A stretch of 64,000 nt of DNA from Actinomycetes bacterium. Its GTDB lineage: Bacteria; Actinomycetota; Acidimicrobiia; Acidimicrobiales; RAAP-2. Positions 23,989 through 29,211 of this stretch are shown one piece after another. A program made the position numbers and the translations under genes. The notes below the pieces were generated by a model, which saw nothing but the letters and a program-made list of their open reading frames with translations, was not told the origin of the DNA and searched no databases. Where the stretch lies: the NCBI GenBank assembly GCA_021827705.1, contig JAKAUQ010000005.1:33306-97305 (forward strand). Direction: 5' to 3'. Every line of letters starts with the position of its first letter. Within the stretch, counting starts at the first letter, position 1.

Positions 23989-25518
23989 GTGGCGCGCTTC
24001 TACATCACCACGCCCATCTACTACGTCAACGACGCGCCGCACGTGGGCCACGCCTACACCACGGTGGTCGCCGACGCCCTGGCGCGCTGGCACCGCCTGG
24101 CCGGCGACGACGTCTTGTTCCTGACGGGCACCGACGAGCACGGCCAGAAGGTGGCCGAGGCCGCCGCGCGCCACGGGACCACCCCGCAGGCCTGGACCGA
24201 CCAGACGGCGGCGCGCTTCCACGACGCCTGGGACGCCCTCAACGTCGACTACGACGACTTCATCCGCACCACCGAGCCGCGCCACCACGAGACGGTCCAG
24301 CGCTTCTTGAGCACCATCTACGACAACGGCTACATCTACAAGGGCCTCTACCGGGGGCTGTACTGCGTGAGCTGCGAGGACTACTACACCCTGGAGGCCA
24401 GCGCCCAGGGGCGCTGCCCGGTTCACGGCCAGCTCCTGACCGAGATGGAGGAGGAGAATTGGTTCTTCCGCCTCTCAGCCTTCGAGGAGCGCCTGCGCGA
24501 CTACTACGACCAGCACCCCGACTTCGTGACGCCCGAGACCAAGCGCAACGAGGCCTACGCGTTCATCGCCGGTGGGCTGAAGGACATCTCCATCACGCGG
24601 ACCTCGATTGACTGGGGTATCCCGGTCCCCTGGGACCCGGCGCACGTCTTCTACGTGTGGTACGACGCGCTCATCAACTACCTCACCGCCATCGGCTACG
24701 GCCGTGAGGACTCGAGCGTGGCGACCTGGTGGCCCGTCTCCCACCACCTGATCGGCAAGGAGATCATCCGCTTCCACTGCGTGTGGTGGCCCGCCATGTG
24801 CCTGGCGGCGGGACTCGAGCCCCCCCACCACGTCCAGGTCCACGGCTGGCTGCTGGTCGGGGGGCAGAAGCTGTCCAAGACCATGGCCGCCGAGGGCGCG
24901 GTACGGCTGACCGACATCGCCCCGGTCACCTTGATCGAGGAGTTCGGCGTCGACCCCTTGCGCTACTACCTGTTGCGCGAGACGGCCCTCGGCAACGACG
25001 GCGAGTTCTCCTACGAGGGCATCATCCAGCGCTACAACGTGGATCTGGCCAACAATCTGGGTAACCTGCTAGCCCGCGTGGTGCGCGTCGTGGAGACCAA
25101 GTGCGCCGGGCTGGCCCCCGCGCCGCCCGCGCTAGCCGAGTTGCGGGCGCCGGCGGCCGACGCCGGGGCCCGAGCGCGCGAGGCTTGGGAGCGCTTCGCC
25201 CCCCACGCGGCCCTCGAGGCCACGTGGTCGCTGATCGGGGCGACCAATGCGTTCCTGGAGCGCCACGCCCCCTGGAAGATGGAGCCGGGAGGGGCCCTCG
25301 AGGCAGTCCTCGGCGAGGCCCTGGAGGCGCTGCGCATCGTGGCGATCCTGGTGAGCCCCGCCATGCCGGCCGTGTCCGACGAGATCTGGCGGCGCCTGGG
25401 TCTGGCCGGGTCCCCCACCGAGGCGGGGCTCGCCGGGCTGGCGTGGGGCCAGAGCCCGGGGGGAGCCCGCCTCGAGGCGGGTCCGGCACTGTTCCCGAGG
25501 ATCGTGAGCCCGTCGTGA
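23989..25518 (+). CDS. metG: Methionyl-tRNA synthetase
   Basis: YITTPIYYVNDAPHVGHAYTTV (HIGH), GGQKLSKTMA (KMSKS-like). Confidence 0.97.
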   Translation: MARFYITTPIYYVNDAPHVGHAYTTVVADALARWHRLAGDDVLFLTGTDEHGQKVAEAAARHGTTPQAWTDQTAARFHDAWDALNVDYDDFIRTTEPRHHETVQRFLSTIYDNGYIYKGLYRGLYCVSCEDYYTLEASAQGRCPVHGQLLTEMEEENWFFRLSAFEERLRDYYDQHPDFVTPETKRNEAYAFIAGGLKDISITRTSIDWGIPVPWDPAHVFYVWYDALINYLTAIGYGREDSSVATWWPVSHHLIGKEIIRFHCVWWPAMCLAAGLEPPHHVQVHGWLLVGGQKLSKTMAAEGAVRLTDIAPVTLIEEFGVDPLRYYLLRETALGNDGEFSYEGIIQRYNVDLANNLGNLLARVVRVVETKCAGLAPAPPALAELRAPAADAGARAREAWERFAPHAALEATWSLIGATNAFLERHAPWKMEPGGALEAVLGEALEALRIVAILVSPAMPAVSDEIWRRLGLAGSPTEAGLAGLAWGQSPGGARLEAGPALFPRIVSPS

Positions 25519-26297
25519 GCGCCTGGACCGACGCCCACTGCCACGTGCAAGACGCCTTCGCCGGGCCCGGCGACGCGACCACCGACGAGTTGCTGGCGCG
25601 GGCGGGCCAGGCGGGTGTGGACCGCGTGGTCGTCGTGGGCACGGACCTGAACACCTCGCGCCAGGCCCTGGACCTGGCGGCCCGGCCCCAGCCGGTCGAG
25701 GTGTACGCCGTCATCGGCCTGCACCCGCACGACTCGGCCCAGGATCGCCAGCCGCTGCGTGACCTGGTGGCCGCGAGGCCCGTCGGCCTGGTCGGGGTGG
25801 GTGAGACCGGCCTCGACTACTACTACGAGCACGCCCCGCGCGCGACCCAGCGGCGGGCCTTCGCCGAGCAGGTGAGCTGGGCCCACGAGTTCGACCTGGC
25901 ACTGGTGATCCACGCGCGCGAGGCCGTCGACGATATCGTGGACATCCTGGCCAGCGAGGGGACGCCCGCGCGCACCGTCATCCATTGCTTCACGGGCACC
26001 CCCGAGGAGGCCGAGCGCTACCTGGCGGCGGGCTGCGACATCTCGGTGGCCGGCATCGTGACCTTCAAGAATGCCGAGAGCCTGCGCGAGGCCGTGCGCC
26101 TGGTGCCTGCCGATCGCCTCCACGTCGAGACCGACAGCCCGTTCCTGGCCCCGGTGCCGCTCCGGGGCCGGCCCAACGAGCCGGCCAACGTCGCCGTGGT
26201 CGGCGCGTTCGTCGCCGAGTTGCGGGGCGAGGACGTTGACCAGCTGCGCCAGACCACCGCGGCCAACACCAGCCGCCTCTTCGCGCTCCATCGGTGA
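25515..26297 (+). CDS. tatD: TatD family hydrolase
   Basis: TDAHCHVQD, VIGLHPHDS, GETGLDYYYEH, VIHCFTGTPEEAERYLAAGCDISVAG, ETDSPFLAP. Confidence 0.95.
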   Translation: MSAWTDAHCHVQDAFAGPGDATTDELLARAGQAGVDRVVVVGTDLNTSRQALDLAARPQPVEVYAVIGLHPHDSAQDRQPLRDLVAARPVGLVGVGETGLDYYYEHAPRATQRRAFAEQVSWAHEFDLALVIHAREAVDDIVDILASEGTPARTVIHCFTGTPEEAERYLAAGCDISVAGIVTFKNAESLREAVRLVPADRLHVETDSPFLAPVPLRGRPNEPANVAVVGAFVAELRGEDVDQLRQTTAANTSRLFALHR

Positions 26298-26434
26298 TTT
26301 CCACCAGGTAAGATAGAAAAAAGGGGCGCGCGCCTTGCTCTGGCGGCGCCGCGTGCCTAGCGTTGTCCGGAGCGTGGCGACGCGCTGACCAATCGGAGGG
26401 TGGGCTACTGACGTCATCGAAAGGCCGGGCGCGA

Positions 26435-27649
26435 ATGCGTTGGGCGTGGCGAATGGCGGTCGGGGCGATCATGTGCCTCGGGCCACTTCTGGGCGCCACC
26501 GAGCTCTCGGGGGCGTCGTCCTCGCACGTCTCGGTGGCCATGCCCGACGTCGTGCACTTCGATCGCGCGAGCACCTTTGCTGCTATGGCTCGCGCCGGCC
26601 TGTACTTCCGCACCAGCGGCCCAGCCAACTGGAACGTCGCGGTGGGCGAGGTGCCCCGCGCGGGCACCCTCGTCCCGCGCGGGTCGACGGTCGTGGTCGA
26701 CACGGCGGTCGAGGCGCCCCGCACCGCGGGCACGACCGTGATGCCCGACCTGCTCTACCGCAGCCGCAGCGAGGTCTTCGCCGCCATGCGCCAGGCGGGT
26801 CTCTACTTCGTGACCAGGGGTCCGGCCACCTGGACCCTCGTCACCGCCCAGCACCCCAGACCCGGGACATCGCTCCCGGTGCACGCCACGGCCGTCTTGG
26901 GCGTGGCGCGGGTGGCGACCTCGTCGCCCTCGGGCGAGACGACGGTGCCCGACGTCGTGCACCTGAGTCGTTCTCGCGCCTTTGCCGCCATGGCCCGAGC
27001 CGGGCTGTACTTCAGCGTGCGCGGTCCCGCCAACTGGACGGTGGTGACCGGACAGGTGCCGGCCGCCGGCACCCGCGTGTCCTGGCACGGCTCGGTCGTG
27101 CTGGCCGTCGCCCACGTCGGGGCAGTCGAGCGTGCTCCCGCCGCGCCCCGCGCCCCCACCACCGCCCGCCCCGTCAGCGGGTCACGGGTTCCCGACCTGG
27201 TTGGCCTGAGCGCCCACGTCGCCGAGACGACCGCGGCACGCGCTCGCCTGCGGCTGCGGGTGCACGTAGCCGGGGGCGGGGACTGGAACACGGTCGCCGC
27301 CCAGAGCCTGCGTCCGGGCGCGCGGGTGCCCGCCGGCACCGTTCTGGTGGTGCGAGGGGTGCGGCGCGTGACCCCCGCGGCGGTCGCGACGACCACGGTC
27401 GTCCCCGCGCACGCGCGAGTTGGGATCGCCACGTGGTACTCGTACTACCCCGGCCAGTGCGCCACGTGGTATCTCCCGCGAGGCACGCGCATCACCGTCG
27501 AGGATCTGGCGACCGGGCGCACGGTCTCGTGCCTGGTCACCGACCGCCAGGACTACGCGCCCGGTCGTGTGGTGGACCTGTCCGAGACCCAGTTCAGCCT
27601 GCTCGCGCCGCTGTGGCGAGGGGTGGTCGAGGTGCGCGTCACGTGGTGA
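26435..27649 (+). CDS. Secreted protein with four PASTA-like repeats and a C-terminal RlpA-like double-psi beta-barrel domain
   Basis: Repeats at MPDVVHF.., MPDLLYR.., VPDVVHL.., VPDLVGL.. then GIATWYSYYPGQCATWYLPRGTRITVEDLATGRTVSCLVTDRQDYAPGRVVDLSETQFSLLAPL; start uncertain (26408 CTG to 26435 ATG). Confidence 0.85.
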   Translation: MRWAWRMAVGAIMCLGPLLGATELSGASSSHVSVAMPDVVHFDRASTFAAMARAGLYFRTSGPANWNVAVGEVPRAGTLVPRGSTVVVDTAVEAPRTAGTTVMPDLLYRSRSEVFAAMRQAGLYFVTRGPATWTLVTAQHPRPGTSLPVHATAVLGVARVATSSPSGETTVPDVVHLSRSRAFAAMARAGLYFSVRGPANWTVVTGQVPAAGTRVSWHGSVVLAVAHVGAVERAPAAPRAPTTARPVSGSRVPDLVGLSAHVAETTAARARLRLRVHVAGGGDWNTVAAQSLRPGARVPAGTVLVVRGVRRVTPAAVATTTVVPAHARVGIATWYSYYPGQCATWYLPRGTRITVEDLATGRTVSCLVTDRQDYAPGRVVDLSETQFSLLAPLWRGVVEVRVTW

Positions 27650-27661
27650 CGACCTAGCGCA

Positions 27662-28477
27662 GTGACCCACACGCGCGCGACCCTGAGCGCCCTGCTGCGC
27701 GACCACGACCTGCATCCGTCGCGCGCCCTGGGGCAGAACTTCGTTGTCGACCCCAACACCGTGCGCCGCATCGCGCGCCTGGCCGAGGTGGGCCCGGGCG
27801 ACCTGGTCGTCGAGATCGGTGCCGGGCTCGGGTCGCTGACGCTGGCGCTGGTCGATACGGGGGCCCAGATCGTGGCCGTCGAAGTCGATCGCCACCTCCT
27901 GGCCCCGCTGCGCGCCGTGGTCGAGCCGCGCGGCGTGGCAGTGCACGGGGGCGACGCCACCGTGCTGGACTTCGCTGCGCTCACCGCCGGGCGCCCGTGC
28001 GTGGTGGTGGCCAACCTGCCCTACAACGTCGCGACCCCCCTGGTGCTGCGCCTGCTCGAGACCCAGCCGGTGGTGCGCCGGCTCTTCGTCATGGTCCAGC
28101 GGGAGGTGGGCGAGCGCTGGGTCGCGGCGCCGGGCGATGCGGCTTACGGTGGGGTGTCACTGCGCGTGTCCTACTTCGCCGACGCGCACCTGGCTGGGCG
28201 CGTGCCGGCGACCGTCTTCCTGCCGCGCCCGCGCGTCGAGTCGGTCCTGGTGGCCCTGGAGCGTCGGGCGGCGGTGCGCATCGATCCGGCGCGCGTCAGC
28301 GAGGAGGACCTCTTCGAGGTGGTGCGTCGCGCCTTCGCGCACCGGCGCAAGATGCTGCGGCGCTCGCTGGCCGACTGGTCCGATCCGGCGGTCTTCGACC
28401 GCGCCGGGGTGGACCCCACCGCCCGGCCCGAGCAGCTCGGGCTTGAGGAGTTCGCCCGGCTAGCGTCGGCTCGGTGA
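27662..28477 (+). CDS. rsmA: 16S rRNA dimethyladenosine transferase
   Basis: ALGQNFVVDPNTVRRIARLA, VEIGAGLGSLTLAL, VVANLPYNVATPLVL. Confidence 0.96.
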   Translation: MTHTRATLSALLRDHDLHPSRALGQNFVVDPNTVRRIARLAEVGPGDLVVEIGAGLGSLTLALVDTGAQIVAVEVDRHLLAPLRAVVEPRGVAVHGGDATVLDFAALTAGRPCVVVANLPYNVATPLVLRLLETQPVVRRLFVMVQREVGERWVAAPGDAAYGGVSLRVSYFADAHLAGRVPATVFLPRPRVESVLVALERRAAVRIDPARVSEEDLFEVVRRAFAHRRKMLRRSLADWSDPAVFDRAGVDPTARPEQLGLEEFARLASAR

Positions 28478-29211
28478 CGATCCTGGAGGCACCGGCGAAG
28501 TTGACCTGGAGCCTCGCGGTTCGCGCTCGGTGCGACAACGGCTACCACGTGCTGCGTGCCGAGATGGTGACCCTGGGGCTGCGCGACGTGCTGCGCGTCC
28601 ACGAGGGCGGGAGGGGGGTGCGCTTCACCGGCCCCTACGCGACGTCGGTGGACCCCGGTCGCGGCGAGCTGGTGGGGCGTGCCCTGGCGATGGTCGGTCG
28701 CGCGGCCGGTGTCCGGGTCGACAAGCAGATCCCCGTGGGCGGGGGGCTCGGGGGAGGCAGTGCCGACGCGGGCGCGATCCTGCGCTGGGCGGGGGGCGTG
28801 GACCCGACGGTGGCGCTCCGGCTGGGGGCCGACGTGCCGTTCTGCCAGCTGGGCGGCCGGGCCCTGGTCGAGGGGTTCGGGGAGGAGCTGACCCCGCTGC
28901 CGTGGGTCGAGCGGGCGGTCACGCTGTTTCTCCCGGACTTCTCGGTGTCCACGGCGGCGTGCTACCAGGCCTTCGACGAGATGGTGGGGGAGGGATGGCG
29001 GGCCTCCGGGCGCAACCACCTGGAGGCGCCCGCCCGCCGGGTCGAGCCGCGCCTGGCGGCAACGCTGGACTGGCTACGCGCCCGCTACGGCGAGGTGCAC
29101 CTGGCCGGATCCGGGTCGACGCTCTACGTGGAGGGGCGCCTCGAGTCCTCCGAGGTGCTGACGGGGCCGGCGGGGCCGGTGCGGGTGGTGGCGACGGCGA
29201 CGGCGCGCTAG
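28474..29211 (+). CDS. ispE: 4-diphosphocytidyl-2-C-methyl-D-erythritol kinase
   Basis: APAKLTWSLAVRARCDNGYH, IPVGGGLGGGSADAGAILR, ADVPFCQLGGRALVEG. Confidence 0.94.
   Translation: MTILEAPAKLTWSLAVRARCDNGYHVLRAEMVTLGLRDVLRVHEGGRGVRFTGPYATSVDPGRGELVGRALAMVGRAAGVRVDKQIPVGGGLGGGSADAGAILRWAGGVDPTVALRLGADVPFCQLGGRALVEGFGEELTPLPWVERAVTLFLPDFSVSTAACYQAFDEMVGEGWRASGRNHLEAPARRVEPRLAATLDWLRARYGEVHLAGSGSTLYVEGRLESSEVLTGPAGPVRVVATATAR

Follow-up and report, generated by a model that had tools for sequence, protein, structure and literature searches.

PASTA repeats joined to an RlpA-type barrel: a predicted wall enzyme at the rpfB/yabE locus in one genus of Acidimicrobiales

Many Actinobacteria encode RpfB, their "wake-up" cell-wall enzyme, at one chromosomal spot, between tatD and rsmA. 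The Mycobacterium protein is built of DUF348, G5 and Rpf domains, and the YabE/SpsB proteins of Firmicutes, encoded at the same locus, of DUF348, G5 and 3D. In the window studied here, which is the whole analysed stretch of 64,000 nucleotides, this place is held by a gene that we call X. Its product resembles RpfB in its tatD-X-rsmA-ispE locus, in being exported and in being, by prediction, a wall enzyme, but lacks Rpf, DUF348 and G5 and carries four PASTA repeats and a C-terminal double-psi beta-barrel (DPBB). Which parts of X are new to the locus, where did they come from, and what does the protein do in the wall?

The gene order metG-tatD-X-rsmA-ispE, by which the preliminary description recognised the rpfB/yabE locus, was found in the window and in its relatives (Table 1). 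Gene X is a single copy in its own genome, and its seven close relatives in GTDB MAGs have the same locus and architecture. Within the order, 49 of 198 genomes gave matches to X, mostly confined to the last 80-90 residues. All 29 loci fetched from that search adjoin rsmA, and all adjoin tatD as well except two that are cut by contig ends. The proteins of these relatives have a hydrophobic N-terminus, a low-complexity linker and then the barrel, with PASTA repeats only in genome G142, which belongs to the same genus. An origin of X as part of a horizontal island was rejected, because X matches its surroundings in base composition and the genus conserves the locus. At one locus (L086 2626-3447, genome G143) the gene between tatD and rsmA appears by eye to be replaced by an alpha/beta-hydrolase-like gene.

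Table 1. Gene X, its parts and neighbours in the window, and the PASTA pseudokinase of the same genome
Feature	Position	Strand	Basis or remark
metG	23989..25518	+	identified in the preliminary description; conserved neighbour
tatD (start approximate)	25515..26297	+	conserved neighbour
Shine-Dalgarno GGAGG (26395-26399) and in-frame CTG (26408-26410), probable true start	26395..26410	+	
Gene X, PASTAx4-DPBB protein	26435..27649	+	404 aa from ATG 26435; 413 aa with CTG 26408 start
Basic N-region and hydrophobic segment (Sec signal peptide or membrane anchor)	26411..26521	+	sequence; helix 2-13 in AlphaFold model
PASTA repeat 1	26531..26707	+	HMM 3e-25; AlphaFold model
PASTA repeat 2	26729..26908	+	HMM 1e-25
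PASTA repeat 3	26933..27112	+	HMM 3e-26
PASTA repeat 4, more diverged	27185..27352	+	HMM 4e-7; best Pfam PASTA stretch 251-305
Two-cysteine RlpA-type double-psi beta-barrel, terminal Trp	27410..27646	+	Pfam, genome scan, order alignment, fold match
Cys342 (27458-27460) and Cys366 (27530-27532)	27458..27532	+	invariant in 29 order members
Asp370 (27542-27544) and Asp381 (27575-27577), 11 residues apart	27542..27577	+	order alignment, E. coli RlpA alignment
rsmA (ksgA)	27662..28477	+	conserved neighbour
ispE	28474..29211	+	conserved neighbour
Genus-specific PASTA pseudokinase, next to ligA, mnmA further on	L177:5733-7565, own contig C1	-	

The four PASTA repeats had been placed at starts near 26540, 26741, 26946 and 27187, each of which lies within one base of a PxV motif, and Pfam PASTA (PF03793) matches X in four stretches (E 1.9e-20, 73 bits against a gathering threshold of 23.2). 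In the AlphaFold model four PASTA folds are seen with fair confidence (pLDDT about 70-88 in most blocks), and the model matches the PASTA domains of PknB by fold (Foldseek E 7e-11). X has the array fold of the PknB/PrkC receptor kinases, but it has no kinase domain by Pfam, and its repeats belong to a subtype represented by the last repeat of a pseudokinase, considered below. Pfam gave no match in X beyond PASTA and DPBB_1, and in particular none to SPOR, DUF348 or G5.

The assignment of the C-terminal domain to the RlpA-type barrels holds, on a borderline profile match and a fold match. With the protein alone, hmmscan places DPBB_1 (PF03330) at residues 342-402 with E 3.8e-6 and 27.5 bits, below the cut-off of 28.8, which is passed with 30 bits in a six-frame scan of the genome; in that scan X is the sole DPBB protein. 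The RlpA whole-protein model (NCBIfam TIGR00413) scored X at 15.9 bits, far under its cut-off of 82.15. AlphaFold, with a shallow alignment, gives the barrel low confidence. When the barrel was folded by itself, its best match in the PDB was the RlpA-like barrel PA4485 (4avr; Foldseek probability 1.00, E 1.6e-3), and expansin 7wvr and loosenin 9ce9 are among the next high-probability structural matches.

An alignment of the barrels of 29 order members shows as invariant two cysteines, Cys342 and Cys366 in X, which are predicted to form a disulfide, the Asp of a DLS motif (Asp381) and the terminal Trp. The position of Asp370 is nearly invariant, and Ser or Thr precedes a Trp/Tyr pair. E. coli RlpA aligns a Ser opposite Asp381; this Ser in place of the catalytic Asp accounts for its inactivity, and the RlpA of P. 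aeruginosa, which has the Asp, is active (PMC9712689). The spacing of Asp370 and Asp381 equals that of the Asp pairs D151/D162 of YuiC and D297/D308 of MltA (PMC4499186). Judged by these alignments, Asp381 corresponds to the catalytic Asp of RlpA, MltA and YuiC (PMC9712689, PMC4499186). X has the DPBB_1 barrel with catalytic Asp of the P. aeruginosa-type RlpA lytic transglycosylase, but differs from it in the absence of SPOR and of an evident lipobox, in a Thr that replaces RlpA's conserved His throughout the window's clade, and in its cysteine pair and PASTA repeats. With YabE/SpsB it shares the locus, the DPBB fold class and the Asp spacing, but it has DPBB_1 instead of 3D and PASTA instead of DUF348-G5, and only two of the three Asp of the 3D domain have an evident counterpart in its barrel.

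We consider it fairly likely that X fills the RpfB/SpsB niche between tatD and rsmA as a lytic transglycosylase targeted by its PASTA repeats. The protein would be exported and then retained in the wall through its PASTA array, and its barrel would cut glycan strands as YuiC, MltA and active RlpA do: Asp381 would serve as the acid/base, and Asp370 would hold the N-acetyl sugar. Both the activity and the wall targeting, as well as the ligand discussed below, are predictions from sequence.

DPBB folds also occur as non-catalytic expansins and protease inhibitors. The barrel of X might accordingly be no enzyme, and might loosen glycan in the manner of expansins and loosenins or place a hydrolase, with the PASTA array as its targeting part. 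Expansin 7wvr and loosenin 9ce9 among the structural matches and the Thr at the position of RlpA's His favour this reading, E. coli RlpA is a non-catalytic precedent (PMC9712689), and in one family of the order, f7, a locus (L075, genome G006) has a degenerate barrel that has by eye lost the catalytic Asp while the gene is retained. But all 29 aligned order members have the Asp, as does each genus member that was read, and the own genome has few other lytic transglycosylase families, so that we regard a non-enzymatic barrel as rather unlikely. The other f7 genomes gave only weak matches to the barrel profile.

The search of the own genome for other wall enzymes found MltG, and no SLT domain, no 3D domain (PF06725) and no DUF348. 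A genuine Rpf protein elsewhere in the genome, which the preliminary description had set against its own proposal, was looked for, and the Rpf domain (PF06737) is absent from X and from the whole genome. This absence is robust, since the assembly is 97% complete and Rpf is absent from all five genus members searched. It agrees with a stronger reading of X as a true substitute for RpfB, waking dormant cells through muropeptides sensed by PASTA kinases, as do the 5' end that X apparently has in common with the Rpf-type genes of the order and its operon position, which is that of the rpfB-ksgA-ispE operon (PMC6009663). Many genomes of the order, however, have the DPBB form at the locus and Rpf elsewhere; the two are thus not strict substitutes, and we think this reading quite improbable. 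X is presumably co-expressed with rsmA and ispE, as is rpfB (PMC6009663), and by analogy of locus a growth-restart (resuscitation-like) role is possible. We think it very improbable that the barrel works as a secreted inhibitor of proteases, on the pattern of the Streptomyces papain inhibitor (SPI): SPI 5ntb matches weakly in sequence, including the TW end (E 0.017), and Foldseek with the whole model also lists SPI (probability 0.75), but PA4485 outscores it by sequence and fold, the PASTA array is of the wall-binding type, and the place of X in the rpfB/yabE locus is conserved beside DUF348-G5-DPBB and Rpf proteins.

The 5' end of the gene bears on its history. The in-frame CTG that follows the Shine-Dalgarno sequence lies 9 codons upstream of ATG 26435. 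This pair is kept in the 18 DPBB-type loci listed, and the ATG is not kept in L004-L008. The conserved pair was noticed across L004-L037, L077, L088, L099, L105 and L106, where most members have no ATG, GTG or TTG at the site. From this conservation, X probably starts at CTG 26408, a non-canonical start kept across the order. By eye, many order members have a TAGCGT/TAGGTT-like -10 element upstream of X (TAGCGT at 26357-26362 in the window). A consensus scan for a sigma-70 promoter or a terminator found none and missed this element too, and Rfam gave no leader RNA or riboswitch match between 22000 and 30000 at E up to 1.

Elsewhere in the order, the gene at the locus ends in a true Rpf domain (PF06737), or is absent; Rpf stands in place of DPBB between tatD and rsmA in L074, L077, L079, L080, L088, L092, L096, L099 and L104-L107. 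The gene of L107 has two Rpf-like stretches. A Shine-Dalgarno sequence with an in-frame CTG just before the basic N-terminus is common to the DPBB type and at least five of the 12 Rpf-type genes, several scores of the comparison being only near the 95% shuffle level. This common 5' context suggests that the Rpf- and DPBB-type genes may be one gene in which the C-terminal domain was swapped. In a tree of TatD, most Rpf forms are found in a single part of the order (25 rows, 99/83), and one DPBB clade (97/98) unites the window's family; the non-DPBB genomes were hand-picked, so these counts are not frequencies.

Outside the order, a profile of the barrel finds DUF348-G5-DPBB proteins at the same locus. 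Two are from the same class (L160, L123), both with the cysteine pair, and several are from other classes (among them L119, L124 and L130), without it. Of the weaker matches in the phylum (E about 1e-8 to 1e-17), those fetched were for the most part ordinary RlpA-like proteins encoded outside the locus. Within the order, DUF348 was found in 3 of 198 genomes, weakly. Given same-locus DUF348-G5-DPBB proteins in the same and in other classes, RlpA-type barrels at tatD-rsmA are widespread and very probably predate the order. The architecture itself was reported in 2010 for the secreted Cutibacterium acnes protein PPA2239 (PMC3224659; also PMC3848858). Like X, PPA2239 is a secreted actinobacterial protein with a C-terminal RlpA-like barrel, and relatives of its architecture occupy the tatD-rsmA locus in other lineages; in contrast to it, X lacks DUF348 and G5 and has PASTA and the barrel cysteine pair.

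The proposal that the enzyme domain of X is a novel replacement in this lineage finds no support, since RlpA-type barrels already stand at the locus behind DUF348-G5 in many actinobacterial lineages. Of the proposed non-orthologous replacement, two steps alone stand as lineage specific, namely that DUF348-G5 was lost and that PASTA was gained; the new element in X is the PASTA array. Non-orthologous domain displacement at the RpfB/YabE locus was published in 2005 (PMC1084345), and the domain exchanges within the order extend it.

The PASTA array in X is confined to the window's genus, where the locus gene has 0, 1, 2, 3 or 4 repeats. It is present in 19 of the 27 genus genomes searched (17 read, the window and G142); of the other eight, three were read and have no PASTA, one has the locus cut by a contig end and four have no clear X-type match. 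In the TatD tree the PASTA-bearing members form one clade (98/93) with the PASTA-less ones as sister group, on a sample of four and three members. A single gain is the simplest reading of this branching, and PASTA was probably gained once in the genus.

Three PASTA proteins are encoded in the own genome: X, a kinase of the PknB type, and a kinase-like protein that carries three PASTA domains (Table 1). In the last, HRD is changed to HGG and DFG to DVA by eye, and by eye the catalytic Asp is missing from the corresponding proteins of four other genus members, too. A position of this pseudokinase beside murJ, as in mycobacterial MviN, was considered and rejected, the neighbour being ligA. Compared pairwise with the last PASTA of the pseudokinase, repeats 1-3 of X and the three repeats of G142 reach z 14-27. 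With the PknB PASTAs, the window's repeats score below z 8 and those of G142 at most 13.6. In a tree with 14 other PASTAs, all X repeats and the last PASTA of the pseudokinase form one clade (100/99.6). Pairwise scores and tree together rule out PknB as the source. The subtype occurs in all 27 genus genomes, with marginal matches only outside the genus, and members without PASTA in X keep it in the pseudokinase. Transfer from pseudokinase to X is for that reason the simpler direction, which we infer from this distribution, the tree being unrooted.

A history in which DUF348-G5 was lost and PASTA then taken up is well supported. An ancestral DUF348-G5-DPBB protein would have lost DUF348-G5 in the order, leaving the barrel behind a short linker, and in one branch of the genus the linker would have taken up the terminal PASTA of the genus-specific pseudokinase, which multiplied to as many as four. 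We found no report of a PASTA-RlpA fusion in the literature searched. The repeats of X and of the pseudokinase would bind a common wall ligand, which would direct cutting to the sites that the pseudokinase senses or set the two proteins in competition for the ligand; the common PASTA suggests a tie between wall cutting and wall sensing. That X and the pseudokinase form one circuit, reading the same ligand through their shared subtype and replacing an Rpf/PknB pair, is unlikely. If true, a glycan-cutting enzyme and a non-catalytic receptor would have in common a sensor subtype built for the purpose, in a lineage that lacks Rpf. The link gives a testable route into the role of bacterial PASTA pseudokinases.

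The tatD-rsmA locus is a natural experiment in module swapping of one wall enzyme whose gene place is kept. The swapped binding parts are DUF348-G5, linker and PASTA, and the swapped cutting parts are Rpf, 3D and the RlpA-type barrel; the locus offers a direct way to test if enzymes of the Rpf and RlpA types can stand in for each other. The preliminary description spoke of a third architecture, which understates the variety, as the locus has at least six. In other classes, the metG-rsmA locus was also seen with a PcsB-type coiled coil fused to DPBB (L140) and with two tandem DPBB genes (L161 2053-3658).
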